34,731 bases of DNA from a virus: positions 1 through 34,731 of the IMG/VR virus record IMGVR_UViG_3300035701_002817; one strand, 5' to 3'. The notes under the pieces were generated by a model. The model was given only the letters and a program-made list of their open reading frames with translations. It ran no database searches and had not been told where the DNA came from. Shown here piece after piece: positions 1-24,510 of this stretch. The translations under genes and the position numbers were made by a program. Within the stretch, counting starts at the first letter, position 1. Each line of letters opens with the position of its first letter.

Positions 1-186
1 TGGAAAGCGACCTCGGCGAAAACAAAACTACCCCAGTTAATGGTTGGTTATGTACTGGCCCGCCTGCTTCCCGATCTGATCAAAGACAAGTATATCCAAC
101 GTATGGTCAGTTGTGACTGCTCGCCTGAAGCGGTGATCGCCCCGACTCCTCCTGTAGAGGAACAGCCAAAGGCAGAGTCAGTCTGA
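1..186 (+). CDS. 3' end of an unknown protein (partial)
   Basis: The first frame is open from base 1 to a TGA at 184-186, giving 61 C-terminal residues of a gene that starts before the window. The visible part has a short hydrophobic stretch (LMVGYVLARLLPDLI), a CDC triplet near residues 39-41, and a Pro/Glu/Ala-rich tail typical of disordered C-termini. I do not recognise a family. Its stop overlaps the start of queD (TGATG), so the two are probably translationally coupled. That is the only hint that it could belong to the deazaguanine pathway. Confidence 0.7.
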   Translation, partial: WKATSAKTKLPQLMVGYVLARLLPDLIKDKYIQRMVSCDCSPEAVIAPTPPVEEQPKAESV

Positions 187-605
187 TGGTTGAACTCTTC
201 TATGAAGCAAAGTTCGATGCGGCCCACCGGTTAATGCACCACGAAGGCAAGTGCAAGAATCTTCATGGTCATACTTGGAGGGTCTCAATCGGAGTAGCAG
301 GGAATCCAGATCCCAAGACGGGAATGGTAGTGGACTTCGCTGTCCTAAAACTTTCGGCGATCAGTTTGGTCATGCACTACTTTGATCATGCTACCATCCT
401 AAACTCCGCAGATCGTGAGTTGTGGATGGCTCTTGAGAAATACAAGTTGTTTCTCATTGATGGTGAACCCACCTGCGAGAATCTGGCCCGGATGATCTTC
501 GATAAGATCAAAGAAAAACTTGACTGTTCACTTTTCACTTTCGTCCTGTCGTCAGTTACTGTGTGGGAATCAGAGACTTCCTCGGCCCGTTACTGCGGGC
601 TCTAG
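186..605 (+). CDS. queD: QueD, 6-carboxy-5,6,7,8-tetrahydropterin synthase (PTPS family)
   Basis: QueD converts dihydroneopterin triphosphate, the FolE product, to 6-carboxytetrahydropterin, the second step of preQ0 synthesis. At 139 aa it has normal family length. Visible signatures are FDAAHRL (zinc ligand H14), CKNLHGH at 23-29 (catalytic C23, zinc ligands H27 and H29), MVVDF, a FDHATILN segment, PTCENLA and a terminal VTVWESETSSARY. The C-x3-HGH arrangement is that of bacterial QueD rather than mammalian 6-pyruvoyl-tetrahydropterin synthase, although the fold is shared. FolE, QueE and QueC elsewhere in the window support the queuosine-type assignment. The ATG overlaps the preceding stop. 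Confidence 0.93.
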   Translation: MVELFYEAKFDAAHRLMHHEGKCKNLHGHTWRVSIGVAGNPDPKTGMVVDFAVLKLSAISLVMHYFDHATILNSADRELWMALEKYKLFLIDGEPTCENLARMIFDKIKEKLDCSLFTFVLSSVTVWESETSSARYCGL

Positions 606-1193: not shown

Positions 1194-1943
1194 GTGACAG
1201 AAAAAAGATTTGCTCCTGCCGACCTCTCAGGAACTGAGATGGTAGGGTTCCTTTCAACCGAAAGTATTTACAAGCAAATTGCCACCCAGTTCAATGAGTT
1301 TTGTTGGTACTACCAAAAGCGTCCTAGTTGGTTTTACAAAGGCACTATGTTGAGATCAGCCAGTTCGCGAGCAAAGGTCGAGGAGCAAATGCGAAAGTTG
1401 ATTCTCCTATCAGTTGCCCTTGAAGAGGAGATTACGATCTTCATGAAGGCCCAGTTCGAAATGTTGGTGCCTTATTTTTCAGCTAGGAAGATCCCGGTTC
1501 GTTTCGAAATGATGGTTACTGACAAAGCCATTGATCGGTTCCTTCGGTACAAAGAAAGGATCAAGGCTCAGTTCAAACTCGAGTCAGATCGTGATCGGGA
1601 GTTCTACAAGGTTCCGAAGAAGGATCTGGTCACGGCGATCTTCAACTCGGGAGAGGTATACCATTCGGTCCTGATCAAGAAACAGGAGCGACTGGGACGA
1701 CTGCCGGAACCAGAGGAGGCGTTGGAAATACTGGAGGTCATGGCACGGGCAGGTATGGTAACCCGCCTTTATGTTGCCACCTCCCCGTTACTAAAGATGG
1801 TTGATGGGTGGTCGGAATTCTTAACCAAGCATATTTCGGACACCTGGGGGATGCTAACAAAAGAGGAATCATACGAACTGCAGAAAGTTCGGGATGAGTT
1901 AACCAAGACGATTGAAGAAAGTGAGGTAGGAAAGTATGTCTGA
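1194..1943 (+). CDS. Hypothetical protein, 249 aa
   Basis: A GTG start at 1194 is preceded by AGGA at 1184-1187, just after the hairpin cluster. The protein is soluble and rich in charged helices, with no cysteine pair or nucleotide-binding loop. A stretch near residues 118-150 (DKAIDRFLRYKERIKAQFKL) looks coiled or helical. I do not recognise a family. It overlaps the helicase gene by 8 bp, so it may be a replication accessory factor such as a helicase loader or partner. That is inference from position only. Confidence 0.75.
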   Translation: MTEKRFAPADLSGTEMVGFLSTESIYKQIATQFNEFCWYYQKRPSWFYKGTMLRSASSRAKVEEQMRKLILLSVALEEEITIFMKAQFEMLVPYFSARKIPVRFEMMVTDKAIDRFLRYKERIKAQFKLESDRDREFYKVPKKDLVTAIFNSGEVYHSVLIKKQERLGRLPEPEEALEILEVMARAGMVTRLYVATSPLLKMVDGWSEFLTKHISDTWGMLTKEESYELQKVRDELTKTIEESEVGKYV

Positions 1944-3300
1944 TCAAGAGACCTATACAAAAGATTTTACGGAAGAAATACAACAGCGTATTGTTGCTAT
2001 GATGTTTTATGATCATGAGGCCTTCCTCATGGTGAAGGAGATAGTTAAGCCGGAATACTTTGAGAATCCTGTACTGGCTGATCTGGTTCGTCTCATGCTG
2101 AAGTACCATGATAAGTACAGTCGATGTATAGACATGGAAGAGTTGACTCAGGAACTCCTGACGTTTCTTGATAATTCAAAGCGTCCTCTTCCAAAGGAAG
2201 TTTATGTGGAGCAGTTTATTGCTCTTCTTACCGATGGTGCTGACAAAAGTTATAGATACGTTCTAGATCAGGTGGTCGCATGGACTCAGTACCAGTTGGT
2301 CAAGATCGCAATCCTGAAAAGTATCAACCTACTGCAAAAGAAAAGGGACTATCCGGGGATACTTAAGGAAATTAAGGATGCGGTGTCCATCGGGGAGTCG
2401 ACGCATGAGATGGGTTCGTTTTACTTTGAGGAACTGGAACAACGATTGGCAGATCGGAAAGGTGGTTGGTGCAGGGGGGAAATTTCTATTCCGACAGGAA
2501 TACCAATTCTTGATCGGCATCTAGGTGGTGGTTTGGCAAAGGGGGAGTTGGGTATTATTATGGGCCCAACGAAGAGAGGCAAGACAATCACTCTGGTAAA
2601 CTTTGCCCGAGGTGCTTTACTTAAAGGCAAAAACGTCCTGCACATCGGAATGGAAAGTAGTGCACGACGAACGATGGTCCTTTACGACGCCCACTTTTCG
2701 GGAGTGTCAAAAGAGAACTTGAAAGATAATGAGGATGTGATCCGAGAAAAGCTGGCGGAGACTCTGTCCACGATGCAGTGTGGTGTTCTTGTGGTAAAGA
2801 ACTTTCCTCCTTTGAAGTGCTCCGCCGCTACGATTGAGGCCCATCTTCAAAAACTTCGGAACTTGAAGAACCTCCAGGTAGACGTATTACTGCTAGACTA
2901 CCTGGGATTGATGACCACGGCAGGCAAGCTACTTGATCGTGATGGAGGCCTATACTCGAAGTTGGGCCAGATTACGAAGGAGTTGTTGGCAGTTGCACAA
3001 GAGTATGATGTTGCGATCTGGTTAATACATCAGGCCAACCGGGGCACTTTGAGCAGAGGTGGTGAGAAGGAAGCGATTGGAATGGTGGACTCTGGGGACT
3101 CTATCGAACCCATGCGAGATGCCGATATTATCCTAACATTCAATCAGTCGGAGGAAGAGGCGAAGATGGAGGCCGATAATGGGTACCAAGACTGCAGGAT
3201 CTTTTCGGCTGGTGGTCGAGAAGTTGCTGACAAGTGGAGCATTCCATTAAAGATAAACAAGGGCAAGTGCCTGATCGTTGAGCCTGGAATGGAGATGTAG
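1936..3300 (+). CDS. Replicative DNA helicase, DnaB/gp41-like
   Basis: This is a 454-aa RecA-fold hexameric helicase that would unwind DNA at the phage fork. An N-terminal helical domain (about 1-150) is followed by the motor: LGGGLAKGELGIIMGPTKRG carries the Walker A loop GPTKRGKT (about 212-219), then HIGMESS, the Walker B strand VDVLLLDYLGLM, and the sensor IHQANRG. The C-terminal part has DSGDSIEPMRDADIILTFNQ, a loop typical of DnaB-like proteins. Length fits the family. It overlaps the upstream gene by 8 bp and has AGGA ahead of the ATG. A DnaG-like primase is at 25551, so the phage appears to carry its own primosome core. Confidence 0.9.
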   Translation: MSDQETYTKDFTEEIQQRIVAMMFYDHEAFLMVKEIVKPEYFENPVLADLVRLMLKYHDKYSRCIDMEELTQELLTFLDNSKRPLPKEVYVEQFIALLTDGADKSYRYVLDQVVAWTQYQLVKIAILKSINLLQKKRDYPGILKEIKDAVSIGESTHEMGSFYFEELEQRLADRKGGWCRGEISIPTGIPILDRHLGGGLAKGELGIIMGPTKRGKTITLVNFARGALLKGKNVLHIGMESSARRTMVLYDAHFSGVSKENLKDNEDVIREKLAETLSTMQCGVLVVKNFPPLKCSAATIEAHLQKLRNLKNLQVDVLLLDYLGLMTTAGKLLDRDGGLYSKLGQITKELLAVAQEYDVAIWLIHQANRGTLSRGGEKEAIGMVDSGDSIEPMRDADIILTFNQSEEEAKMEADNGYQDCRIFSAGGREVADKWSIPLKINKGKCLIVEPGMEM

Positions 3301-3302
3301 TC

Positions 3303-4256
3303 ATGCAGAAAGAAATATTGACCACTGAGCAGGTTTGGAGAATGGCCAAAGGTATCGTTGAAGATAATGTTTGCTTTCCTCCTGACATGATCATCGGCAT
3401 CTCGCGGGGAGGAATCTACCCAGCCATGCTGGTTCAACGAATGCTATCGGAACGAACCTCTCAGAAATTTGACTTTCGTATTGTTGACCCATTCACTTCT
3501 GGTTGGATGGATGAGTTCGTGGGAAAAAGAATTCTCCTCGTTGATGACATTTGGGATACAGGCGCCACGATGCGATACTTTATAGATGAGGCAAAGAAGA
3601 AGGGACTTGCTGTTATACCAGCGGCCCTTGTTGTTAAGACGGAGGGGGAGAGAAAGCAGGAAGTTTGGTTTACCTTTCCCTGGGAAACGGAATCCGACGA
3701 ACCCGGTGGACGGAAGCAGGCGACCATCACCTTACTCCGATCAATCGGGGAGGACCCTCTGCGTGAGGGGCTTCGTGACACTCCTCGACGTGTTGCTAAA
3801 ATGTGGGACGAACTGACCTGTGGTTATACCCAGGATCCGAAGACCCTGTTAGATACCTCCTTCTCTTCTGAGTTGTATGATGAGATGGTCGTTCTGAAAG
3901 ACATCAAGTTCTACTCAACTTGTGAGCATCACATGCTTCCCTTTTATGGTAAGGTTCACTTCGCCTACCTGCCCGATAAAAAAGTCGTGGGAGTTTCAAA
4001 GATTGCCCGTCTGGTCGAATGTTTCTCTAGGCGCCTTCAGATTCAGGAACGGATGACCGTGCAGATCGGGAAGGCGTTTGAGGCGGCGGTTGCTCCACTG
4101 GGGGTTGGTGTCTTGGTGGAGGGCGTGCACTTGTGCATGATGATCAGGGGGGTGGAAAAGGAAAATGCCAAGATGGTCACCAACTATCTTAGTGGTAGTT
4201 TCCGTGATCGTCCGGAGGCTCGGGCGGAGTTCCTGAAGATCGTGGAGGCGACGTGA
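3303..4256 (+). CDS. folE: Phosphoribosyltransferase - GTP cyclohydrolase I (FolE) fusion
   Basis: Two domains lie in one 317-aa frame. Residues 1 to about 128 look like a type I phosphoribosyltransferase: IIGISRGGIYPA near 30-41, the PRPP loop LLVDDIWDTGAT at 78-89 and the closing WFTFPWE. Residues about 137-317 are GTP cyclohydrolase I: DPLREGLRDTPRRVAKMW, STCEHHMLPFYG (zinc ligands C207 and H210), GVSKIARLVECFSRRLQIQE, and GVHLCMMIRGV (C278). All key FolE residues seem present. FolE makes dihydroneopterin triphosphate from GTP, the first step to preQ0. The PRT half is unexpected; it could supply purine nucleotide or handle a deazapurine base. The frame is continuous, so this is a true fusion rather than two adjacent genes. 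Confidence 0.9.
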   Translation: MQKEILTTEQVWRMAKGIVEDNVCFPPDMIIGISRGGIYPAMLVQRMLSERTSQKFDFRIVDPFTSGWMDEFVGKRILLVDDIWDTGATMRYFIDEAKKKGLAVIPAALVVKTEGERKQEVWFTFPWETESDEPGGRKQATITLLRSIGEDPLREGLRDTPRRVAKMWDELTCGYTQDPKTLLDTSFSSELYDEMVVLKDIKFYSTCEHHMLPFYGKVHFAYLPDKKVVGVSKIARLVECFSRRLQIQERMTVQIGKAFEAAVAPLGVGVLVEGVHLCMMIRGVEKENAKMVTNYLSGSFRDRPEARAEFLKIVEAT

Positions 4257-5260
4257 AAAACCAGTACCTGATGTCCAGCGTCTTTCTCACCAGACGGTGT
4301 CCCATGCACTGTGCCTACTGCAGTCTGCGGGACTCAAAGTTGGTCGACAAAGAATTGACTGCCAAGCAATGGGCCACCGCGTTTGAGGAACTTGACAAGG
4401 TGGGTTGTTCCTTTCATCTGATCCTGGGGAACGAACCCCTCCTTCTGAAAGGTCTGGTTGATCTGGTATGGTGGATGCGTGGACGAACCCCTTACGCAAT
4501 CTATACAAGTGGCTATCCCTTGCTGATTGATAAGCACCTTCCGGCTCTGGTCGAAGCTGGTCTCCCGAATCTTAGTGGTGGGTGTGATAAGTTGATTACT
4601 GACCGCTCGCCTGCAACGGATATCGAGAGGAAGTCCAACTATGTCTTTAACGCACTTCAAAGGGCACGGGGTCTGGGGGTGAAGGATCTTCAGGGAACCA
4701 TCACCCTATCAAAGTTGAATCTTGATAGTGTGGTTGATACTATCACTACCCTCCATGAGGCGGGAATCTGGAGTGGGTTCAATATTATCCATTACAATAC
4801 GGATGGGCAGTTCGATTTCTTCCCTGAGAAAGAGGCGATCAAGGATCTCCTCTTTACTGAGGAGGACTGGCCGAAACTTCGTGAGGTGATGGGTCAGATT
4901 GTTTCAATGATAAAGTCAGGTGACTATATGATTCACCCACCTGCCGAATACTTCCAAGGGATTCTTGATCAGGGAGTTAATCTATCCTGGCACTGCACTC
5001 ATCCTCTGGTCCTGTCGGTTGACTCGGATGGGAAGATGCGGTGTTGTGGTTATAGGCGCGGCACACGGTCACCTAACTATAGTGTCTTGAAGTTGAGCAA
5101 AAACTATGAGAAGTTTTTGGCGGACAATGCCCAGGATCGGAAGGAGTGCCCAGGATGCTATTGGTCATGCTACTGGATGGCTGAGTATTATTTTGCTAAG
5201 GATCCTGACTTCGGTATAAAAGTTTTCCAGTCTCACGCGACTAGGAGGAATGATGAGTAA
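4253..5260 (+). CDS. Radical SAM protein with C-terminal Cys cluster (SPASM/twitch-like)
   Basis: The N-terminus reads FLTRRCPMHCAYC, a canonical C-x3-C-x2-C radical SAM cluster (C16, C20, C23), followed by a GNEPLLL segment in place of the usual GGEP. The C-terminal third has further cysteines: WHCTHPL, MRCCGY, ECPGCYWSCYW. This arrangement suggests an auxiliary Fe-S cluster as in SPASM/twitch enzymes. The protein is 335 aa, starts with GTG and overlaps folE by GTGA. It is not QueE, which is separate at 23267. The substrate cannot be read from sequence. Its place between folE and Gat-QueC makes a deazaguanine or pterin tailoring step plausible; peptide modification is the main alternative. 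Confidence 0.85.
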   Translation: MKNQYLMSSVFLTRRCPMHCAYCSLRDSKLVDKELTAKQWATAFEELDKVGCSFHLILGNEPLLLKGLVDLVWWMRGRTPYAIYTSGYPLLIDKHLPALVEAGLPNLSGGCDKLITDRSPATDIERKSNYVFNALQRARGLGVKDLQGTITLSKLNLDSVVDTITTLHEAGIWSGFNIIHYNTDGQFDFFPEKEAIKDLLFTEEDWPKLREVMGQIVSMIKSGDYMIHPPAEYFQGILDQGVNLSWHCTHPLVLSVDSDGKMRCCGYRRGTRSPNYSVLKLSKNYEKFLADNAQDRKECPGCYWSCYWMAEYYFAKDPDFGIKVFQSHATRRNDE

Positions 5261-5972
5261 AGAAACAATCGTCATCACTGGTGCATCCACTGGTATCGGG
5301 CGGGCGGTCCTACTTCATTTGTTCGAGAAGTTTCCGGACGCCCGGTTCATAACAGCAAACCGGAAAATAATTTCTAAGGAGGAGTTGCCTGGGGATATCA
5401 AACTTATACAGTTTCCGATTGACCTGGGGGAGTGGGATAAGCTGTCTACATTGTGTAGATGGTTAGATGGATTGATTATTGATATTCTGGTGAACAATGC
5501 AGGGACGATGCCTTTTGCCGCTATAGGTTCAGTGGGTGTGGATGATTATAACCAGACTCTGGATGTTAATCTACGAGCTCCCTTCTTCCTATCTCAGGCG
5601 TGCATTAGGCACATGCCGGGTGGTGGTCGAATCATCAATGTTGCTTCAATCGCCGGCGGGCCTTGGGTAGATCCGGATAGTTCAATCATACCCTATAGCA
5701 TCAGTAAGGCCGGTGTGATCATGTTGACGAGACAGTTGGCAAAGGCCTTTCCCACACTGCGGATCAACTCAGTTTCACCTGGGTTGGTGGCAGGTACTAA
5801 TATTGTTGGAGGTGAGCCCACACCGCAGTCCCTGATTGACACGGTCCCGATAAAGCGGGAGGTGACCACACAGGAGGTCGCCCGCCTGATCGGATTCCTT
5901 TGCTCAAAAGATGCCGATTACATTACTGGTCAAGATATCGTCATAGATGGCGGTAAGACCCTTTGGGGATGA
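5253..5972 (+). CDS. Short-chain dehydrogenase/reductase (SDR), first of a tandem pair
   Basis: This is a classical 239-aa SDR with a complete active site: cofactor loop TGASTGIG (9-16), NNAG (81-84), catalytic Ser in INVASIAG (S132) and YSISK (Y148, K152), then SPGLVAGT and the terminal YITGQDIVIDGG. It should be an NAD(P)H-dependent oxidoreductase of the FabG-like type. The ATG at 5253 is chosen over 5250 because AGGAGG at 5243-5248 is better spaced. It overlaps the radical SAM gene by 8 bp. Known deazaguanine routes do not need an SDR. Sepiapterin reductase is an SDR acting after FolE and PTPS, so a pterin role is an alternative. Confidence 0.9.
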   Translation: MSKETIVITGASTGIGRAVLLHLFEKFPDARFITANRKIISKEELPGDIKLIQFPIDLGEWDKLSTLCRWLDGLIIDILVNNAGTMPFAAIGSVGVDDYNQTLDVNLRAPFFLSQACIRHMPGGGRIINVASIAGGPWVDPDSSIIPYSISKAGVIMLTRQLAKAFPTLRINSVSPGLVAGTNIVGGEPTPQSLIDTVPIKREVTTQEVARLIGFLCSKDADYITGQDIVIDGGKTLWG

Positions 5973-6700
5973 AGATGCTAAAACTAACACGTAATCTTAT
6001 TGTTATCACTGGAGCAACTAGCGGTATTGGGAATGCTACCTTGAGGAGATTGTATCATCAGTTTCCAGTTGCCCACTTTGTCAATGTTGACAAGATACCC
6101 ATGGATATCCATGATCTTCCTATCGGATGTAATCTTTTACAATTAACTGCTGATCTCCGACTTGCCGGCGATCTGGTTTGGGCGTGTGATCAGATAGGCC
6201 TTGTCTCCCGACCGGTGGACCTTTTGGTGAATAATGCAGGGATATGTCCCTTCCGAAGATTTGAGGAACTGAGTCCTAAGGAGTATGCGGAAACCATGGA
6301 TGTTAATCTTCGCGCACCATTCTTCCTTTCACAAGTGTGTATTGCTCAGATGCCCGATGATGGACGGATCATTAACATAGCGTCAACCTCTGGGCATCGT
6401 CCGGAGACGGAACCCGAGTTGGTTGACTATAGTCTAAGTAAGGCCGGTGTGATCATGTTGACAAAGTCCCTGGCGAAACTTTATCCTCGACTTCGTATTA
6501 ACTCTATCTCTCCGGGGTTTGTGGCGGGAACTGGACTATCTGGTGTTGCTGGTCTCCCTCCAGAATTGGCAAGTTTGGTTCCACTGAAAAGGTTTTGTCG
6601 TCCGGAGGAGGTTGCTGAAGTAGTTGCGTTTTTATGCTCTGACCAGGCTGATTATATCACTGGACATGACCTGGTGATTGATGGTGGGAAGATCCTTTAG
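5969..6700 (+). CDS. Short-chain dehydrogenase/reductase (SDR), second of a tandem pair
   Basis: This is a 243-aa SDR with all catalytic motifs: TGATSGIG, NNAG (88-91), INIASTSG (S139), YSLSK (Y154, K158), SPGFVAGT and YITGHDLVIDGG. It shares long near-identical stretches with its neighbour (VNLRAPFFLSQ, SKAGVIMLT), so the pair most likely arose by duplication. Substrate-facing regions differ, for example GTMPFAAIGS versus GICPFRRFEE after NNAG. The ATG at 5969 overlaps the preceding stop (ATGA); ATG at 5975 is also possible. Retention of two intact copies suggests two different reduction or oxidation steps, or a heteromeric enzyme. Confidence 0.9.
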   Translation: MKMLKLTRNLIVITGATSGIGNATLRRLYHQFPVAHFVNVDKIPMDIHDLPIGCNLLQLTADLRLAGDLVWACDQIGLVSRPVDLLVNNAGICPFRRFEELSPKEYAETMDVNLRAPFFLSQVCIAQMPDDGRIINIASTSGHRPETEPELVDYSLSKAGVIMLTKSLAKLYPRLRINSISPGFVAGTGLSGVAGLPPELASLVPLKRFCRPEEVAEVVAFLCSDQADYITGHDLVIDGGKIL

Positions 6701-6709
6701 GAGGAAACC

Positions 6710-6904
6710 ATGATACAACTTATTTATCTTGAGCAGGCACCCCAAACAAAACGACACTATCCCTGTTTTTATTATGTAGACGGGAAGGGAACTTATCATG
6801 CAGTTGCTCATGTTATAAAGGCACGGGGAGCTGACAAAGCAATGCGAGGGGCATTCGAATCGTTAGTGGGTTCTTTGTCAAAGTTAATACCAGAGGGGAA
6901 GTAG
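6710..6904 (+). CDS. Small hypothetical protein, 64 aa
   Basis: It is preceded by AGGAGG 5 bp ahead of the ATG, a strong ribosome site, and ends 1 bp before Gat-QueC. The product is small, basic and soluble (HYPCFYYVDGKGTYHAVAHV, then ADKAMRGAFESLVGS), with a beta-rich first half and a helical second half. No family is recognised. The tight spacing inside the modification cluster suggests co-expression with the SDRs and Gat-QueC. Confidence 0.75.
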   Translation: MIQLIYLEQAPQTKRHYPCFYYVDGKGTYHAVAHVIKARGADKAMRGAFESLVGSLSKLIPEGK

Positions 6905-6905
6905 G

Positions 6906-8528
6906 ATGTGCGGCATAGTGGGTGTTTGGAATCGGGATGGAGCCTTTGATTGGGATACATACGATGAGTTGTTCTCTGCGGCGGAGAACCGAGGACAGGA
7001 TGGATTTGGGATCACTTTGGTTCCTGATATCCGAAAGAAGGAGATACTGACCTTCAAGTCCACTAAGACATACTCTGTCGACAAGTGGGCTGTCAAGAAT
7101 TGGTTAATGGATCCTGCCCCGGTAAAGGGCAGTTTGATCATTGCGAACTTCCGCGCCCAACCAGAGACGGAAGTTGAAAGTTCCGAGAAGAATCTTCAGC
7201 CGATTGTATGTACAAAGGAGGGACTGATCCTTTCCCATAATGGTTCAGTGGCAAATTTCGTGGTGAACAAATACTCCGACTATCAAACAAAGATTGATAG
7301 TGAAGTCATTCTCAAGTCCTATCAAACGAGTCGTAATATGGGGAAAGTTATGGAGGAGATGGTGGGTGGGTTTGCTTTTCTACTCTATGATCAAGAGGTC
7401 AATCGTCTGTTCTGTGTCAATGACTTCAAGCCGCTGGCGATTTGTTGTATCAGAGGAAAGGGAGTTATACTCCACTCATGTCTTGATGTAATTGAATCAG
7501 TAACCAGGAAGATCACTGATGCTCCCCGGTGCGGCATGAATGTGTGGGAGGACTGGTATTATCATTGGCAGGATGGCAACACCATTCGGGAGATTGATCT
7601 TGATAGTGGAATGGAAAGAATCACGACCTTCCAACCCAACCGATACCATCCGGTGTGGAAGCCTTCGCCGAAGATCAATAGCGAGTCCGTCCTGGTCTCT
7701 TCATCGGGTGGGATTGACAGTGGCCTGTCTGCGTTTGTCATGAGGCGTCTGGGATACCGAGTGACTCTGGTGAACTTCAACTATGGTCAGCGGGGCTGGG
7801 AGGCAGAGAGTTTGGCCTCCAGGCGCCTTGCTGATTACATGGGTTCGGAGTGGGTTGGCATTGATCTACAGAACATCTTCAAGGGAGATCCTTCGTCATT
7901 GATTAGACCGACCATTCCTATCGAGACAGGGACGGAGAGTTACATCAAGACAACGACTGCGTGGGTTAGCAATCGCAACGCAATTTTCCTATCCATCCTT
8001 GCCTCGTTGGCGGAACAGCAGATCCTGAGTAACAAGTCGGATCGAGTTCACCTCGTTACCGGAATGAGTAATCTCACCGAGGAGGGCTTCTATCCTGACA
8101 ACTCAGAGTACTTCGTTCGTGCCTTCCTGGAGATGACTAAATACTCAACACTAGTCGGTGATCGTATCACTTACGTTTCGGTTATGCAACAGATTATGAA
8201 GTCCGAGGAGTGGATCCTCGGTAAGGAGCTAGACTTTCCCTTTGGGATGACAGTGAGTTGTGACCAGCCCTACGTGAACGAGAAAAAGGAAATACTTTTG
8301 TGTCGGCAGTGCGGTTCAACTCTTCTTAGCATCTGGGCCGCCGAGATGGCTGGTGTTGAGGATCCCAGACAGTTTTATGACTTAGAGGGACTACCCGTCA
8401 TGGAAAAGAGGATTACTAAAGGAAGTAAAAATAAGGTTGACTATGCGGACCTGGTCCGGCGAATCAAACTGCCTAGTAAAAAGGACTATGATAGACTGGC
8501 TGATCTTTTGATGGGTCCGAGGAATTGA
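6906..8528 (+). CDS. Gat-QueC: class II glutamine amidotransferase fused to a QueC-like PP-loop domain
   Basis: The 540-aa protein begins MCGIVGVW, which exposes the catalytic Cys2 of class II amidotransferases after Met removal. It continues with ENRGQDGFG and LSHNGSVAN, typical of that domain. From about residue 255 a QueC-like domain follows with the PP-loop SSGGIDS (266-272), NFNYGQRGWE, TTTAWVSNRNAIFLSI, VTGMSNLTEEGFYPDNSEYF and a C-terminal LCRQCGSTLL Cys group. Gat-QueC is known in some archaea and in phages such as 9g. There it is linked to turning the preQ0 nitrile into the archaeosine amidine with glutamine-derived ammonia. A stand-alone QueC follows, so this copy probably does the amidation rather than preQ0 synthesis. 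Confidence 0.9.
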   Translation: MCGIVGVWNRDGAFDWDTYDELFSAAENRGQDGFGITLVPDIRKKEILTFKSTKTYSVDKWAVKNWLMDPAPVKGSLIIANFRAQPETEVESSEKNLQPIVCTKEGLILSHNGSVANFVVNKYSDYQTKIDSEVILKSYQTSRNMGKVMEEMVGGFAFLLYDQEVNRLFCVNDFKPLAICCIRGKGVILHSCLDVIESVTRKITDAPRCGMNVWEDWYYHWQDGNTIREIDLDSGMERITTFQPNRYHPVWKPSPKINSESVLVSSSGGIDSGLSAFVMRRLGYRVTLVNFNYGQRGWEAESLASRRLADYMGSEWVGIDLQNIFKGDPSSLIRPTIPIETGTESYIKTTTAWVSNRNAIFLSILASLAEQQILSNKSDRVHLVTGMSNLTEEGFYPDNSEYFVRAFLEMTKYSTLVGDRITYVSVMQQIMKSEEWILGKELDFPFGMTVSCDQPYVNEKKEILLCRQCGSTLLSIWAAEMAGVEDPRQFYDLEGLPVMEKRITKGSKNKVDYADLVRRIKLPSKKDYDRLADLLMGPRN

Positions 8529-8530
8529 TC

Positions 8531-9244
8531 ATGGTAAAAAGTAGACGTCCCGTCCTGATGTTCAGCGGTGGGCTTGACTCATTGATTGCCTGGTTTGCTT
8601 TGGGCAAGCCAAAGGCAGTTCATGTCCACTTGGGTCACCGCTATGGAGCATCGGAATACTTTACTTCCATGAGCCTTGCGAAAAGGTTGGGTATGGACTT
8701 GATCATTGAGAAACGATTGTACCTCGGTGATCAGGAGTCACCCGATGCCTATATTCCAATGCGTAATCTTTTCCTTGCCATGATTGGTGCACTTTACGGG
8801 GATGACATTTACTTGGTTTTCCAAAAAGGTGAGCAGTCCATTCCTGATCGTTCGCCTGAGTTCCTGGATAAGGCGTCAGAGATGCTATCGTTCCTTAATG
8901 AACGAAGGATCGTGGTGGACAGTCCCTTTCATAATATGACGAAGTCAGGCATGATTAGGTGGTACCTTGATCAAGGCAACGAAAAGTGTCCGGTTGATGT
9001 TCTCTATAAGTCATTCTCCTGCTTTGGATCGGACTCAACAAAGGTTCCTTGCGGAGAGTGTGCCGCCTGTTTCAGGCGATGGGTAGCCTTTGAGAATAAT
9101 GGACTGAGTCTTGCCCTTCGTGCAGATATCAAAGAGTGGGCAGGAATTCCTGGTTACATTAAACGGGTGAAGGCCGGAGAGTATGATCTTGATCGTGCTA
9201 GGGAAATTGAGGGGGTCTTAAGGAGGCATGGATTATGGAAGTAA
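8531..9244 (+). CDS. queC: QueC-like 7-cyano-7-deazaguanine (preQ0) synthase
   Basis: This is a 237-aa PP-loop ATPase. The N-terminus has FSGGLDSL (SGGLDS 12-17), the centre YIPMRNLFLAMIGALYGDD and PDRSPEF, and the C-terminus the zinc site with C164, C174, C177 and C180 (SCFGSDSTKVPCGECAACFR). QueC turns 7-carboxy-7-deazaguanine plus ammonia into preQ0 at the cost of ATP. The motifs match the family, although the middle is divergent. The ATG at 8531 is preferred because GAGGAA at 8519-8524 is well spaced. The start lies 2 bp after the Gat-QueC stop. Having both proteins side by side allows nitrile formation and amidine formation to be separate steps. Confidence 0.85.
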   Translation: MVKSRRPVLMFSGGLDSLIAWFALGKPKAVHVHLGHRYGASEYFTSMSLAKRLGMDLIIEKRLYLGDQESPDAYIPMRNLFLAMIGALYGDDIYLVFQKGEQSIPDRSPEFLDKASEMLSFLNERRIVVDSPFHNMTKSGMIRWYLDQGNEKCPVDVLYKSFSCFGSDSTKVPCGECAACFRRWVAFENNGLSLALRADIKEWAGIPGYIKRVKAGEYDLDRAREIEGVLRRHGLWK

Positions 9245-10326
9245 AAGTTTCCGGAGTGGAAGTTGAACGAGTCTTGAGTGCGGTATTGAGGTTTACTGAA
9301 CCAAACAATTTTCTTCCAGCAAGTGATTTGGTAATTTTTGATCGTATATACATAATTACCACCATGGTTTGGGGGGGATGCGTTCACCTCAGTAGTTTCT
9401 TCAAAACGGAGAAGCCGCTAGGTCTTCCTGTCGACTTGCTAAAGAGGGTGCGTGCGGGTCTTGAGGGTAGGTTAGATAAAGAGGTGACCATCATTCTGGA
9501 CGAGGTAGCGGAAGACATTTCCTTTAAGGTGGGACGTGATCGTAGTGTGGTCCGTGCCCAGACAGCACTGAAGTATACCACCCCTGATCGTATAAAGTCT
9601 GATGATGTCGTCTTGTATGAGGCTACTGGTGATGTGGTTGGTGATCTTCAGAAGTTGTTGTTTTCCTGTTCTGACAATCCCTATGATGTAAAGTTTAATG
9701 GTGTCTGGTGGTCGGAGGATGATCATGCCTGGTATGCGTCGGATAACTTTAGGATAACTCGTTTTCCATCGAAATGTAAGTTGGGTCTTGAGGGGAACTT
9801 TTTTGTGCCCTCAACCTTTATTGAAAAGTCCGGTGGTTCAACGGATAAACTTGAGTTTGTGGGACTTGATGAAAACTCTTGTTTGTTTTTCTTCAAGGAC
9901 TATATTACATCGTTCCTGGTGATGGAACACAAGATGCCTCCCTTTGCCTCAGCCTTTGCGGGTGCAAGGGAGGAGGCATTATCCTCAGAACAAAGATTTA
10001 CAATTAACATGCCGAAAGAGGATGTTGCACGATATCGAAAAACATTCCGAGAGGCAGGATCTGCTCCGGATATCAACATATACAAACGAGACGATGGGGT
10101 CTATATGCTGGACGCCCAGTATAAGCATACCCAAACGGGTAGTTTTGAGACGGAGGTTGATCTAGTCGATGTTTCGGGGGAGATCGCCTTTACGATTGAT
10201 GGTACCTTCCTGTTGGATGCTCTTGAGCGGTTTAGTACTTTTTACCTGGTGGAGAAAAAGCACATCTACGCAAAGAACGAGGAGTCAGGAATGGAGCAAC
10301 TTATTGCATGGAAGATAAGAGGATAA
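9235..10326 (+). CDS. Divergent DNA sliding clamp, DnaN (beta-clamp)-like
   Basis: At 363 aa it matches the usual length of bacterial beta clamps. Features consistent with DnaN are an alternating strand-helix pattern, AWYASDNFRITRF in place of the DnaN ATDGHRL segment, NFFVPSTFIEK resembling the llP-x-k block, and a C-terminal MEQLIAWKIRG in the position of the last clamp strand. There is no enzyme motif. Similarity is faint, so a T4 gp45-like or unrelated replication protein remains possible. It overlaps queC by 10 bp with AGGAGG at 9221-9226. Its place between queC and dpdA ties modification genes to the replisome module. Confidence 0.55.
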   Translation: MEVKVSGVEVERVLSAVLRFTEPNNFLPASDLVIFDRIYIITTMVWGGCVHLSSFFKTEKPLGLPVDLLKRVRAGLEGRLDKEVTIILDEVAEDISFKVGRDRSVVRAQTALKYTTPDRIKSDDVVLYEATGDVVGDLQKLLFSCSDNPYDVKFNGVWWSEDDHAWYASDNFRITRFPSKCKLGLEGNFFVPSTFIEKSGGSTDKLEFVGLDENSCLFFFKDYITSFLVMEHKMPPFASAFAGAREEALSSEQRFTINMPKEDVARYRKTFREAGSAPDINIYKRDDGVYMLDAQYKHTQTGSFETEVDLVDVSGEIAFTIDGTFLLDALERFSTFYLVEKKHIYAKNEESGMEQLIAWKIRG

Positions 10327-10328
10327 CT

Positions 10329-11357
10329 ATGGAAGAGATCCGAGACTTCAAGGTCTTCTTCGTTATGACTTCGGGGGCACTGGAGCGCATGACCCGATTT
10401 GTTCAGCAGGGAATACTTCGTCGTATCCTATCCAGTTTTGTATACAAGGATCTCATTGATAAGTTGGCGAAGAATCTTGGTCCAGAGCACACAAAGAAAA
10501 TGGACATCTTGATTGACTCCGGTGCCTTTACTGTTATGACTCAAGGGAAGGTAATAAACATTAGTGAGTATGTAGATTATCTGCGGGCCTTTACTGCGGA
10601 GGATCGGTGGGCCAGTGTCTATGCCTTCAACCTTGACGTAATTCCGGAGTTGGATAAGTTTGGCCATCTTAGTCACGAGACAGAGGAGAAAGCCGCCGAG
10701 GCGTCATTCAAGAATTATCTTTACTTAACTGAACAAGCAAAGTTGGACTTCATCATTCCCGTTTATCATTATCGAGAAAATCTTAAGTGGTTGAAGAAAA
10801 TAGTGGAGTCAGGTTGTCAGTACTTTGCTTTCGGTGGAATGTCCGGGAAGGTCAAGAGTTCGGCGGTAAAGAAAAAGGCCTTTTCAGAATTGTTCCTCCG
10901 TCTTGAGGAGTATGGATATAAGGGCAAGGTTCACATGTTGGGCCTTTGTATGCCGGAGGTCCTTTGTTCAAATGCCTGGTATTCAGTGGATGCCACTATT
11001 ACGAAGTCGGCTGGGTATGGTCATATCTATTTGTTTGACGAAAAGTCAAAGAACAAAGTTTCAGTATGCCCGGTTTCGCCGATTAGGGGAAGGCATGAGT
11101 CAGTCATGGGCGCTCACTCCTCAGACTCCTATCTTGCTGATCAACTAAAAGTGATTGGTATGGGTGATATCACTATTGAGGAAATGACCACAAGTTTCTG
11201 GGCAAGAGTTGAGGCCTGTTTCCGATCATGGTCAATGTTTGAAGATTTCGTAAATCGTCGACGAAAGGAACTTGGACGGAACTGCGTTTATGATATCGGG
11301 ATACAACGTGATGTTCATAGTTTTTGGAATGGGTTTGGTCATGACGATAAAGCGTAG
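10329..11357 (+). CDS. dpdA: DpdA-like 7-deazaguanine DNA transglycosylase (TGT fold)
   Basis: This TGT-superfamily enzyme is expected to swap guanine in DNA for a 7-deazaguanine base. Visible blocks are DILIDSGAF (D63 as a likely catalytic or base-binding Asp), YAFNLDVIPE (D103), FIIPVYHYRENLKW, the barrel motif YFAFGGMSG (165-173), VHMLGLCMPE and AWYSVDAT (D221, in the position of the second catalytic Asp). At 342 aa it resembles phage DpdA proteins rather than tRNA TGT, and I do not see the tRNA-type zinc site. The ATG at 10329 is chosen because AGAGGA lies 5 bp upstream; one at 10308 is possible. With folE, queD, queE and queC present, DNA rather than tRNA is the likely substrate. Confidence 0.8.
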   Translation: MEEIRDFKVFFVMTSGALERMTRFVQQGILRRILSSFVYKDLIDKLAKNLGPEHTKKMDILIDSGAFTVMTQGKVINISEYVDYLRAFTAEDRWASVYAFNLDVIPELDKFGHLSHETEEKAAEASFKNYLYLTEQAKLDFIIPVYHYRENLKWLKKIVESGCQYFAFGGMSGKVKSSAVKKKAFSELFLRLEEYGYKGKVHMLGLCMPEVLCSNAWYSVDATITKSAGYGHIYLFDEKSKNKVSVCPVSPIRGRHESVMGAHSSDSYLADQLKVIGMGDITIEEMTTSFWARVEACFRSWSMFEDFVNRRRKELGRNCVYDIGIQRDVHSFWNGFGHDDKA

Positions 11358-22878: not shown

Positions 22879-23267
22879 TGAATAAGTCTGCTGTTCCTCA
22901 AACCCCCATTAAGAAAAAGGTAGATCCCTTTGATCAGGTGGTCGGTCATCTGGTATCCTATATGGAACTTGCCCGGGCAACAAAGTTTCTTTTGGGAACT
23001 ACCAAACGACTGACCCCTCCTTTGGATCTTCGGTTAACTACGGAGATAAATTTCTGCCACTTGACTTTAACAAGAGTTTGTAATCTCTCGTCAGAGGCAA
23101 TACTGGACATAGTCAAGAGATTGGTTTCCCAACCAGACTTTGCCGAGGAAGTGAAGAGTATGGCAGATTGGTTGTCTCCTAGTAAGGGTCGTGTTCTTAT
23201 CACTGTGGATGAGTTTAGTAGAATGCGTCCGCCTCTTCCCAGTAAGTCCTTATTCGGAGGTAGATGA
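22878..23267 (+). CDS. Hypothetical protein, 129 aa
   Basis: A GTG start overlaps the previous stop by one base, with AGGAGG just upstream. The protein is helical in its centre (FDQVVGHLVSYMELARATKF, SSEAILDIVKRLVSQPDFAE) with basic ends and a Pro-rich C-terminus (MRPPLPSK). No motif is recognised. Its stop overlaps the first possible ATG of queE, so it is probably co-translated with queE. Confidence 0.7.
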   Translation: MNKSAVPQTPIKKKVDPFDQVVGHLVSYMELARATKFLLGTTKRLTPPLDLRLTTEINFCHLTLTRVCNLSSEAILDIVKRLVSQPDFAEEVKSMADWLSPSKGRVLITVDEFSRMRPPLPSKSLFGGR

Positions 23268-23902
23268 TGTTAACAGTCAACGAAATCTTTGAGTCAGTGC
23301 AGGGTGAGGGTAACCATGCCGGACGAGTAGCGATCTTTATCAGATTCACTGGGTGTAACTTGAGTTGCTCGTTCTGTGATACCAAGTATTCCTGGAAGGA
23401 TGGGACGGAACTTTCAATCAAGGAGATCATGGACAAGGTTCGAGAGTTCAAGTCTATGTTTGTTATCCTCACCGGAGGCGAGCCAACTATCCAGCCTTTC
23501 GAGGATCTTCAGCATCTGGTATCATGTCTTCACCATTACGGCTATCAGGTAGCGATGGAAACGAACGGAACCAACTTTATCCATCCTTTCCATCTGCCTC
23601 TTGATTGGATAACAGTCTCTCCGAAGTCGGAAGAATTTATTCAGTCGGAAGGAGATGAGTTGAAACTTCTATACGATGGCACTCAGAACCTGGAAGTATA
23701 TGAGAAGAAGAGGTTCCGATTCTTTTATCTTCAACCGATACTTCCTGAGTATGACCTTCGTAAAGTTACTGGAATGCCTGAGCAAGTAGCTGACTTCATG
23801 GAGAGGATCAAGAGTGCAATAGAGATCTGCGTCAGGGCCGCTAAGGAGCGACCACTTTGGCGGGTATCATTCCAATCTCATAAAGTTATAGGAGTGCGAT
23901 GA
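23267..23902 (+). CDS. queE: QueE, 7-carboxy-7-deazaguanine synthase (radical SAM)
   Basis: QueE rearranges the QueD product into 7-carboxy-7-deazaguanine. The 211-aa protein shows NEIFESVQGEGNHAGR, the radical SAM cluster CNLSCSFCDTKYSW (C30, C34, C37), ILTGGEPTIQ and ETNGT, then DWITVSPK, all standard for QueE. Here the cluster spacing is C-x3-C-x2-C. The ATG at 23267 is chosen because CGGAGG ends 6 bp upstream; ATG at 23264 is also possible. It completes the FolE-QueD-QueE-QueC route but lies about 14 kb from the main cluster. Confidence 0.95.
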   Translation: MLTVNEIFESVQGEGNHAGRVAIFIRFTGCNLSCSFCDTKYSWKDGTELSIKEIMDKVREFKSMFVILTGGEPTIQPFEDLQHLVSCLHHYGYQVAMETNGTNFIHPFHLPLDWITVSPKSEEFIQSEGDELKLLYDGTQNLEVYEKKRFRFFYLQPILPEYDLRKVTGMPEQVADFMERIKSAIEICVRAAKERPLWRVSFQSHKVIGVR

Positions 23903-24510
23903 CGAATCAATCTGGTATCATCTATGTAACTCAGAATCTTCTGAATGGAAAAATCTATATTGGTATTCATACAAAAGGACGATCTAGTTATCTTGGGTCT
24001 GGCAAGTATCTTCAGAGAGCTATCAAAAAATACGGACAAGAGCACTTCAGACGAATAGATATCGATGAGTTTAACTCTATAGAAGAAGGTTGTTGTAAAG
24101 AACGATTTTGGATTTGTGAACTGAACTCAAAAGTTCCTAATGGCTATAATCTCAATGATGGTGGTGAGGGACAGTTCAATCCTTGTCAGGAAGTTCGAGA
24201 TAGAATGAGTGAAGGAAATAAGGGTGACAAGAGTCCCATGAGGAGACCGGAAGTGGCGGCTAAACATAGTAGAGCACTGATGGGCAAACCTTCTGGAATG
24301 AAAGATAAGCACCATAATAACGAGACCAAGATCAGAATGAGTATAGTGCATAAAGGCAAGTTTCATCGTAAGGAGACTAAAGATAAACTTAGTGAATTAA
24401 ATAAGGGTAAGTATAATCCTATGTTTGGTAAACATCATAGTGATAAAACAAAGACTAAGATGAGTAAGTCCCAGATGGGAAAGCATTTTGAATTGGAGGG
24501 GATAAGATGA
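23899..24510 (+). CDS. GIY-YIG homing endonuclease with NUMOD3 repeats
   Basis: The N-terminal nuclease has GIIYVTQNLLNGKIYIGIH (the GIY...YIG pair), YLGSGKYLQRAIKKYG and an ERFWICELN glutamate. The C-terminal half is made of NUMOD3-type DNA-binding repeats: RDRMSEGNKGDKSPM, IRMSIVHKGKFHRKET, DKLSELNKGKYNPMFGKHHS, KTKMSKSQMGKHF. This matches Seg-type free-standing homing endonucleases of T4-like phages. The gene is visibly AT-richer than its neighbours, which suggests a separate origin. It overlaps both queE and the following gene by ATGA, so it was fitted in without breaking either. Confidence 0.92.
   Translation: MTNQSGIIYVTQNLLNGKIYIGIHTKGRSSYLGSGKYLQRAIKKYGQEHFRRIDIDEFNSIEEGCCKERFWICELNSKVPNGYNLNDGGEGQFNPCQEVRDRMSEGNKGDKSPMRRPEVAAKHSRALMGKPSGMKDKHHNNETKIRMSIVHKGKFHRKETKDKLSELNKGKYNPMFGKHHSDKTKTKMSKSQMGKHFELEGIR

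Follow-up and report, generated by a model that had tools for sequence, protein, structure and literature searches.

To our knowledge, the C7 groups of known phage deazaguanines are small: nitrile, amide, amidine, aminomethyl, carboxyl, and close relatives. Small C7 groups are included among the phage deazaguanine modifications on record (PMC6884629). The dG+/dPreQ0 modification systems of phages such as 9g and CAjan (PMC6884629) shared FolE, QueD, QueE, (Gat-)QueC, and DpdA with the locus described here, which lay in a 34,731-bp window (the whole stretch of viral DNA analyzed, positions 1 to 34,731 of IMG/VR record IMGVR_UViG_3300035701_002817). Beyond these shared determinants, the locus harbored a radical SAM enzyme (rSAM), two short-chain dehydrogenases/reductases (SDR1 and SDR2), and a second QueC-family enzyme (QueC2), and relatives also encoded a methyltransferase, a heptose-type kinase, or the combination of a GT4-type glycosyltransferase and a PIG-L-like deacetylase. 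The main text of Hutinet 2019 (PMC6884629) held no word starting with 'radical' or 'SDR', PMC11888242 concerned bacterial dpd islands, and none of the matches listed from the open-access literature described an rSAM–SDR pair or a glycosyltransferase acting on a phage deazaguanine.

The rSAM–SDR pair very probably belongs to the deazaguanine pathway. We propose, with a probability of roughly 0.45, that it forms the tailoring core of an undescribed phage 7-deazaguanine DNA hypermodification, acting via a ketone on a sugar-like group.

Association of the rSAM–SDR pair with deazaguanine genes

The window encoded, all on the same strand, QueD, a DnaB-like helicase, a phosphoribosyltransferase (PRT)–FolE fusion, rSAM, SDR1, SDR2, a 64-aa open reading frame, Gat-QueC, QueC2, a clamp-like protein, a DpdA-like protein, and a polymerase. 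As a first-pass annotation of the window had stated, rSAM, SDR1, and SDR2 were overlapped head-to-tail between folE and Gat-QueC, with overlaps of 4 bp (folE/rSAM), 11 bp (rSAM/SDR1), and 10 bp or less, depending on the SDR2 start (SDR1/SDR2). The gene set of phage deazaguanine DNA modification (FolE, QueD, QueE, Gat-QueC, and DpdA) was present in full; all five were genes separate from the cassette, in agreement with the annotation's view that no preQ0 or dG+ step needs it, and the separate QueE made rSAM an extra enzyme.

The relatives were collected by several searches. A single-sequence rSAM scan of viral contigs found only the near-identical 98-kb record L001/G001, the Gat-QueC scan brought L014 and L016 (rSAM 47–49% identical), and the SDR2 scan brought L011, while rSAM profile scans of viral contigs gave 14 loci with a 4-row profile and 25 with an 11-row profile. 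Four rows were dropped, namely L001 (near copy of the window) and L020, L022, and L025 (92–100% identical to L019, L021, and L024, respectively); the window and L043, a contig of a metagenome-assembled genome (MAG), were added, resulting in 23 distinct rSAM loci. The virus loci were known as metagenomic contigs only, and their deazaguanine modification was read from genes. Three other sources were searched with rSAM: (i) 50,697 GenBank phages, with no match from three queries; (ii) plasmids, with 11 records, the five listed being partial matches annotated PqqE; and (iii) genome contigs, with no match from the first profile and, from the second, only the 11.9-kb Halanaerobiales MAG contig L043, itself carrying a phage-type cluster.

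Deazaguanine genes accompanied rSAM in 23/23 loci. The first-pass annotation had named beforehand, as the observation that would speak against it, a cassette occurring also in many phages devoid of these genes, and no such locus was found (0/23). The individual markers were distributed as follows: (i) DpdA in 22/23 loci, the exception being L021, which was cut inside Gat-QueC (no DpdA was found elsewhere in the L021/L022 records, both of which end inside the cluster); (ii) FolE in 21/23, the exceptions L029 and L038 starting near or in rSAM, and in most loci FolE adjoined the rSAM/SDR pair or sat within a few genes of it; (iii) QueD in 19/23, not being seen in L011, L029, L036, and L038, with the misses in L011 and L036 applying to fetched flanks; (iv) QueC in 22/23, the exception being L038, where a methyltransferase separated rSAM from the deacetylase (QueC was counted by profile; the similarity group called QueC also held QueE, probably via two intein-bearing genes); and (v) QueE in 21/23, not being found in the 22-kb L016 record or the 16-kb L038 record. 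Most missing deazaguanine genes fell at contig ends or in fragments.

An SDR was paired with rSAM in 18/23 loci, the SDR gene coming first in 13 and rSAM coming first in five; one methyltransferase lay between the two in L014, and they were still adjacent in the reordered L037. Two SDRs were present only in the window virus, while 17 of the 22 relatives had one and five had none seen (one of these, L038, was not judged because its contig starts in rSAM). No SDR was found elsewhere in the records of the five loci without an adjacent one, the empty answer of this search counting as weak. A methyltransferase lay beside rSAM in three of the four remaining SDR-less loci; one methyltransferase family occurred by rSAM in six loci, and L032 and L038 carried others.

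L001/G001 displayed 98.5% DNA identity to the window across the first 13.9 kb and kept all three cassette genes, with synonymous/non-synonymous codon differences of 0/0 in rSAM, 11/0 in SDR1, and 9/4 in SDR2. This retention, together with the presence of rSAM (mostly with SDR) in 22 further loci, argues that the cassette is a product of neither chance nor decay.

Sequence and fold of the radical SAM enzyme

The window rSAM scored 47.6 bits against Pfam Radical_SAM (cut-off 29.5). The CxxxCxxC motif was kept in 22/22 rSAMs having that end (L038 being cut by its contig start), and GNE at the SAM site was kept in 23/23. The extra C-terminal Cys cluster noticed in the first-pass annotation proved to be a general trait: C248-x11-G260-x4-C265 and C299-x2-C302 had all four Cys in 23/23 aligned rSAMs. 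The twitch (half-SPASM) auxiliary cluster has the motif CX9-15GX4C followed by CX2C, a spacing shown by the rSAM C-terminal Cys residues, and by these motifs, together with the fold matches to MoaA, PqqE, and SkfB given below, rSAM is a twitch-type radical SAM enzyme with a predicted auxiliary cluster. Judging by the conserved Cys and Ser-Tyr-Lys residues, rSAM and SDR look active.

The AlphaFold2 model of rSAM, built from 11 rows, had a pLDDT of 85.5 and a pTM of 0.87, and the structure comparison suggested by the first-pass annotation gave BlsE (PDB 7VOB) as the best solved fold match (Z 24.3, root-mean-square deviation 3.1, 293 aligned residues, 14% identity). SkfB (Z 21.0) came after BlsE, then PqqE, SuiB, MoaA, and viperin (Z ~18), with DesII at 15.8; BtrN was absent among the best 50 fold matches. 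By sequence, the rSAM profiles matched MoaA best among PDB entries. In the fold comparison with viral proteins, the top match was a 571-aa protein (BFVD A0A8S5QS09) named 7-cyano-7-deazaguanine synthase, and this name suggests that an rSAM–QueC fusion exists among viral proteins.

Two family assignments of rSAM were tried and rejected: (i) MoaA or PqqE, since rSAM scored 37.4, 35.6, and 40.3 bits against NCBIfam equivalog cut-offs of 325 (archaeal MoaA), 284 (MoaA), and 381 (PqqE), respectively; and (ii) QueE, which was not among the 13 matching NCBIfam families and was encoded separately.

The short-chain dehydrogenases/reductases

Both window SDRs scored far above the Pfam adh_short cut-offs. 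Classical SDR features were kept in 19/19 SDRs (the three Gly of TGxxxGxG and the catalytic Ser, Tyr, and Lys), with the Thr of TGxxxGxG in 18/19 and, of the NNAG motif, one Asn in 18 and the other in 13. SDR1 and SDR2 were 49% identical and both had Ser-Tyr-Lys, as expected of the two intact paralogues first described, but as a general trait the doubling did not hold, being peculiar to the window virus. Position 37, where the second strand ends, was Asp in SDR2 alone of the 19 SDRs and other residues elsewhere; speculatively, this Asp37 may confer a different NAD/NADP preference.

Among the best 25 of 205 NCBIfam matches of SDR1, no SDR family model passed its cut-off: dihydropteridine reductase (109 bits, cut-off 325) and pteridine reductase (103 bits, cut-off 288) ranked below FabG/glucose-dehydrogenase types, and sepiapterin reductase, the SDR that the first-pass annotation had brought up as a precedent, was not among them. 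Within these 25 matches, all of them under their cut-offs, the pterin-reductase reading of the SDRs, which is still a candidate, found no specific family support.

Two subtypes with different end modules

The 23 loci were assigned to type A, the QueC2 type (n = 12: the window, L014, L016, L011, L023, L024, L026, L027, L028, L040, L041, and L021), and type B (n = 11: L029, L032–L039, L042, and L043); L021 was put in type A by its Gat-QueC, its contig stopping before QueC2. Type-B loci contained QueC (10/11), a ~130-aa protein, a PIG-L-like deacetylase, and a glycosyltransferase, in most of them just before DpdA. The profile comparison of the two types covered the fetched flanks and, for G001, the entire record: (i) the QueC2 profile strongly matched 11/12 type-A loci and only weakly the type-B QueCs; and (ii) the deacetylase and glycosyltransferase profiles matched 11/11 type-B loci (their own source) and 0/12 type-A loci. 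When the A/B label was mapped onto the tree of rSAM, it had to change three times, and well supported branches forced at least two of these changes: end modules have been exchanged around a retained rSAM.

The type-B deacetylase (~160 aa) had invariant DDE and HPxH residues and a weak match to diacetylchitobiose deacetylases (E 0.002). The Pfam PIG-L model was matched by 2/11 of these proteins (E up to 0.01), none above the cut-off, and "PIG-L-like" is therefore a putative name. The model of the type-B glycosyltransferase had a pLDDT of 86.8, and its fold matches (Z 19–23, mostly tied) were GT-B enzymes, among them BshA, MshA, and tetrahydrobiopterin glucosyltransferases (Z ~21); it had no NCBIfam match. 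As for type-A records, L011 encoded an RfaE-domain-I-like (heptose-kinase-like) kinase (324 bits, just under the cut-off of 345), and G001 encoded an NAD-dependent epimerase/dehydratase (PF01370, E 2e-47) ~8 kb before QueD.

Proposed pathway and alternatives

Read from family membership, FolE, QueD, and QueE would make the carboxy base, Gat-QueC (and QueC2) would activate this base and amidate it, with the DpdA-like enzyme swapping the modified base for guanine in DNA. rSAM would abstract a hydrogen at the carbon beside a hydroxyl of a polyhydroxylated, sugar-like group, carried by the deazaguanine or destined for it, with the auxiliary cluster orienting the substrate or accepting an electron. 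A ketone would then arise through dehydration or dehydrogenation, and the NAD(P)H-dependent SDR would reduce it to give a deoxygenated or epimerised group, which a methyltransferase may cap in some relatives; the two SDRs of the window may divide oxidation and reduction between them. Attachment would be achieved by either (i) the GT4-type glycosyltransferase plus PIG-L-like deacetylase (11 relatives) or (ii) a reaction of QueC2 at the carboxylate of the base (11 loci, window included).

A sugar-type substrate of rSAM, to which we give slightly less than even odds, is suggested by the GT4-type fold, the PIG-L-like deacetylase, and the heptose-kinase-like protein in relatives and by BlsE as the best rSAM fold; the G001 epimerase/dehydratase was counted among the sugar-type neighbors and likewise supports it. 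The first-pass annotation had proposed a new tailoring role for the cassette: membership in the pathway stood, but direct action on the 7-substituent or a pterin would be less likely, the relatives pointing rather to a sugar-like group. The most complete form of the proposal, in which phage DNA carries a glycosylated 7-deazaguanine, an rSAM/SDR pair of the aminoglycoside kind edits its sugar, and the end modules are exchangeable (GT4 plus deacetylase, or a QueC-type ligase), is tentative, and dehydration–reduction in particular, argued by analogy, is held a shade more loosely still.

Several observations weigh against action on a sugar-like group: (i) a BlsE-like fold is not BlsE chemistry, SkfB, PqqE, and MoaA also scoring Z 18–21 and the identity to BlsE being low; (ii) the second-cluster motif proposed for BlsE, CxCxxC (PMC3715490), differs from the Cys spacing of rSAM, the motif itself being only a proposal; (iii) SDR was missing in four loci (L026, L032, L039, and L040); (iv) a constant rSAM with swapping end modules also fits action on the base itself; (v) no type-A locus, the window included, had a relative of the type-B glycosyltransferase; (vi) among the 12 type-A records, PF00483 nucleotidyltransferase was found in none, GT1 PF00534 gave sub-cut-off matches only, in one record, and GT2 PF00535 genes were present in five (80–98 kb), where they may serve other ends and were not used as proof because they lay far from the cassette; and (vii) a ~95-aa HAD protein of 7/12 type-A loci, which had weak capsule-phosphatase matches in 4/5 scanned, was rejected as a sugar hint, the models passed being PNKP-phosphatase (3/4 scanned) and 5'-nucleotidase (L023).

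The best-surviving alternative, which we consider unlikely, is that the pair has the deazaguanine base itself, or a precursor pterin, as its substrate and creates a reactive C7 handle (e.g., a carbonyl converted to an alcohol) that is then capped by GT4/PIG-L or QueC2. The changes of capping module around a constant rSAM, the closeness of FolE to rSAM/SDR in most loci, the tetrahydrobiopterin glucosyltransferases that shared the top rank in the fold comparison of the type-B glycosyltransferase, the pteridine-reductase models among the 25 SDR1 matches, and the ranking of MoaA, an enzyme acting on GTP, as the PDB entry closest in sequence to the rSAM profiles are all consistent with it; however, the best solved rSAM fold was the sugar-acting BlsE, rSAM reached about one-tenth of the MoaA and PqqE cut-offs, and the pteridine-reductase matches of SDR1 fell far short of their cut-offs and were outranked by other models.

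It is improbable that the fused PRT makes a deazaguanine ribonucleotide whose ribose is deoxygenated by rSAM and SDR (a 3'-keto, 2'-deoxy route) to supply the DNA polymerase. Viperin, which dehydrates nucleotide ribose, was among the rSAM fold matches, and the small HAD proteins matched nucleotide- and polynucleotide-phosphatase models; PRT, however, was clearly fused to FolE in just 4/23 loci (the window, L014, L016, and L011; weakly in a fifth, L023), while DpdA, which inserts a free base, was encoded in 22/23.

Still less probable is a metabolic hitch-hiker unrelated to DNA modification: rSAM and SDR belong to broad superfamilies and replication genes lie in the neighborhood, but no locus was found outside a deazaguanine cluster and the link survived order inversions and module swaps. 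The adjacency of a radical SAM enzyme to FolE and Gat-QueC would also suit a spare or replacement QueE, or another way of boosting preQ0/G+ flux, which is the least probable of all given the separate QueE in 21/23 loci, the lack of QueE among the 13 NCBIfam families matched by rSAM, and an auxiliary cluster that is not known as part of QueE.

Related modules in GenBank phages

The type-B glycosyltransferase weakly matched 14 GenBank phage records (10 Pseudomonas, three Xanthomonas, and one Erwinia), and rSAM was not found by three queries in the GenBank phages with this related glycosyltransferase. In Xanthomonas phage PhiXhv-12 (L051), the glycosyltransferase (profile E 4e-21) followed Gat-QueC and a deacetylase above the Pfam PIG-L cut-off and preceded a Gfo/Idh/MocA oxidoreductase; the type-B deacetylase profile missed this deacetylase, and the 25-kb stretch gave no DpdA-type match. 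In Pseudomonas phage PAC2 (L050), the glycosyltransferase (E 2e-19) directly followed a protein with a TGT-like DSGGFQ motif (read from sequence), which had no Pfam match and no DpdA-profile match, and it lay near an epimerase, a separate PRT, and an annotated 7-carboxy-7-deazaguanine synthase. The DSGGFQ gene ended where the glycosyltransferase match began in the 10 Pseudomonas records (two being the same phage). PAC2 and PhiXhv-12 are thus candidates for glycosylated deazaguanine DNA without rSAM, and because these two groups of cultured-host phage records carry a related glycosyltransferase beside deazaguanine-type genes, the proposal is directly testable.

QueC2-like and DpdA-like genes were adjacent in Bacteroides phage BS162P1 and MT835752 (L030 and L031), with no rSAM-profile match in the stretch searched; QueC2 can therefore occur without rSAM.

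Gene content of the window and side observations

Table 1. Features of the 34,731-bp window with coordinates, strand, and basis of identification
Feature	Coordinates	Strand	Basis and remarks
QueD (6-carboxytetrahydropterin synthase)	186..605	+	PF01242 3e-34; TIGR03367 91.6 bits vs cut-off 89.25; phrog_2389
DnaB-like helicase	1936..3300	+	Name read from sequence
Phosphoribosyltransferase–FolE fusion (PRT-FolE)	3303..4256	+	PF00156 1e-11, PF01227 5e-71; GTP_cyclohydroI 238 bits
Twitch-type radical SAM enzyme (rSAM), auxiliary cluster predicted	4253..5260	+	PF04055, conserved Cys, model, BlsE fold match; 335 aa, GTG start
SDR1, classical short-chain dehydrogenase/reductase	5250..5972	+	240 aa; Ser-Tyr-Lys intact; AGGAGG just 5'
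SDR2, SDR1 paralogue	5963..6700	+	245 aa from TTG; in-frame ATGs 5969, 5975; Ser-Tyr-Lys intact
64-aa open reading frame	6710..6904	+	No Pfam, NCBIfam, or PHROGs match
Gat-QueC	6906..8528	+	PF06508 + GATase domains; QueC 106 bits
QueC2, second QueC-family ATP-dependent enzyme	8525..9244	+	P-loop, Zn-type Cys set; divergent substrate motif
DNA polymerase processivity (clamp)-like protein	9235..10326	+	phrog_947 1.6e-4; syntenic in L014, L016, L011
DpdA-like DNA guanine transglycosylase	10308..11357	+	phrog_887 5e-29
QueE (radical SAM enzyme of CDG synthesis)	23264..23902	+	3 PDB matches, all 7-carboxy-7-deazaguanine synthases, best 1.4e-24

Gat-QueC had relatives in dG+ phages (e.g., 9g, 27% identity), and the DpdA-like protein kept DSGA, H209, and D228 in 14/14 aligned sequences. 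QueE was located ~18 kb downstream of rSAM, with relatives in the L014, G001, and L011 records. The 64-aa open reading frame (ORF) had a 97% identical counterpart in L014, and tblastn found none in L016 or L011. The PRT domain, N-terminal on FolE, might recycle guanine set free by DpdA.

Judged by its sequence, the window ORF 11272–13938 seemed to combine a uracil-DNA-glycosylase-like N-terminus with a family A DNA polymerase, and the polymerase similarity was split over two ORFs in several type-B relatives. Window positions 23687–24497, covering the QueE end and most of ORF 23899–24510, were unaligned in the near-identical G001; this ORF resembled a GIY-YIG homing endonuclease (name from sequence). 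The start of the G001 record (L004 13–1450) held a second, short radical SAM ORF and then a GT2 glycosyltransferase, away from the cassette.

Among the relatives, Gat-QueC and QueE of L040 11221–13386 and L024 6407–8014 seemed to contain inteins (Hint/Intein_splicing matches; L024 also HNH), and several type-B QueC proteins were without the zinc-binding end. Two additional small proteins recurred: (i) a protein of ~200 aa, acidic over one stretch and conserved in its C-terminal part, which was encoded in 10 loci spanning the two subtypes (L026 5689–6315 plus nine) and had no Pfam match in the one member scanned; and (ii) the ~130-aa protein (L033 9574–9996 plus ten others), which accompanied the deacetylase and glycosyltransferase in 11/11 type-B loci and had no Pfam match in the L033 and L029 members scanned.

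Comparison with known systems

In type B, the combination of a GT4-type fold and a PIG-L-like deacetylase resembled BshA/BshB and MshA/MshB, which are GT4 plus PIG-L deacetylase pairs, but the type-B deacetylase was small and had weak family scores. Aminoglycoside pathways hold a glycosyltransferase and a deacetylase, as type-B loci do. BlsE, the best solved fold over nearly the whole rSAM model, has a nucleobase-linked sugar as its substrate, and in a later view it is said to be a dehydratase. It was reported to act on cytosylglucuronic acid as a decarboxylase (PMC3715490), and radical dehydration versus dehydrogenation has been discussed for DesII (PMC11434129).

AprD4, a radical SAM diol dehydratase, and AprD3, an NADPH-dependent reductase, together deoxygenate paromamine (PMC5461906). 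The pair described here shared with them the coupling of a radical SAM enzyme to a reductase (SDR with rSAM in 18/23 loci, absent in four) but was located in a DNA-modification cluster; the likeness is one of working mode rather than family membership.

QueC2 shared with Cap9/QatC and canonical QueC the (S/T)GGxDS loop, Pro-x-Arg-Asn, and four Cys (9/9 aligned sequences), and its profile matched QueC and Cap9 structures, but its YxQxHxxE and YPDC motifs (defined in PMC13329287) were altered, and it adjoined DpdA rather than being part of a defence system. For a base carboxylate as a handle there is a precedent in CmoX/CmoY, where the carboxylate of carboxymethylcytosine serves an ATP-dependent ligase in phage DNA (PMC12783734), although the base is cytosine rather than deazaguanine and the enzymes are others. 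If the proposal is true, the loci would open up a class of DNA deazaguanines that are bulky and possibly glycosylated, bearing on restriction evasion, phage sequencing, and radical enzymology on nucleobase substituents, and would represent a modular deazapurine hypermodification with a parallel in the hydroxymethyl-pyrimidine hypermodifications that other phages carry.

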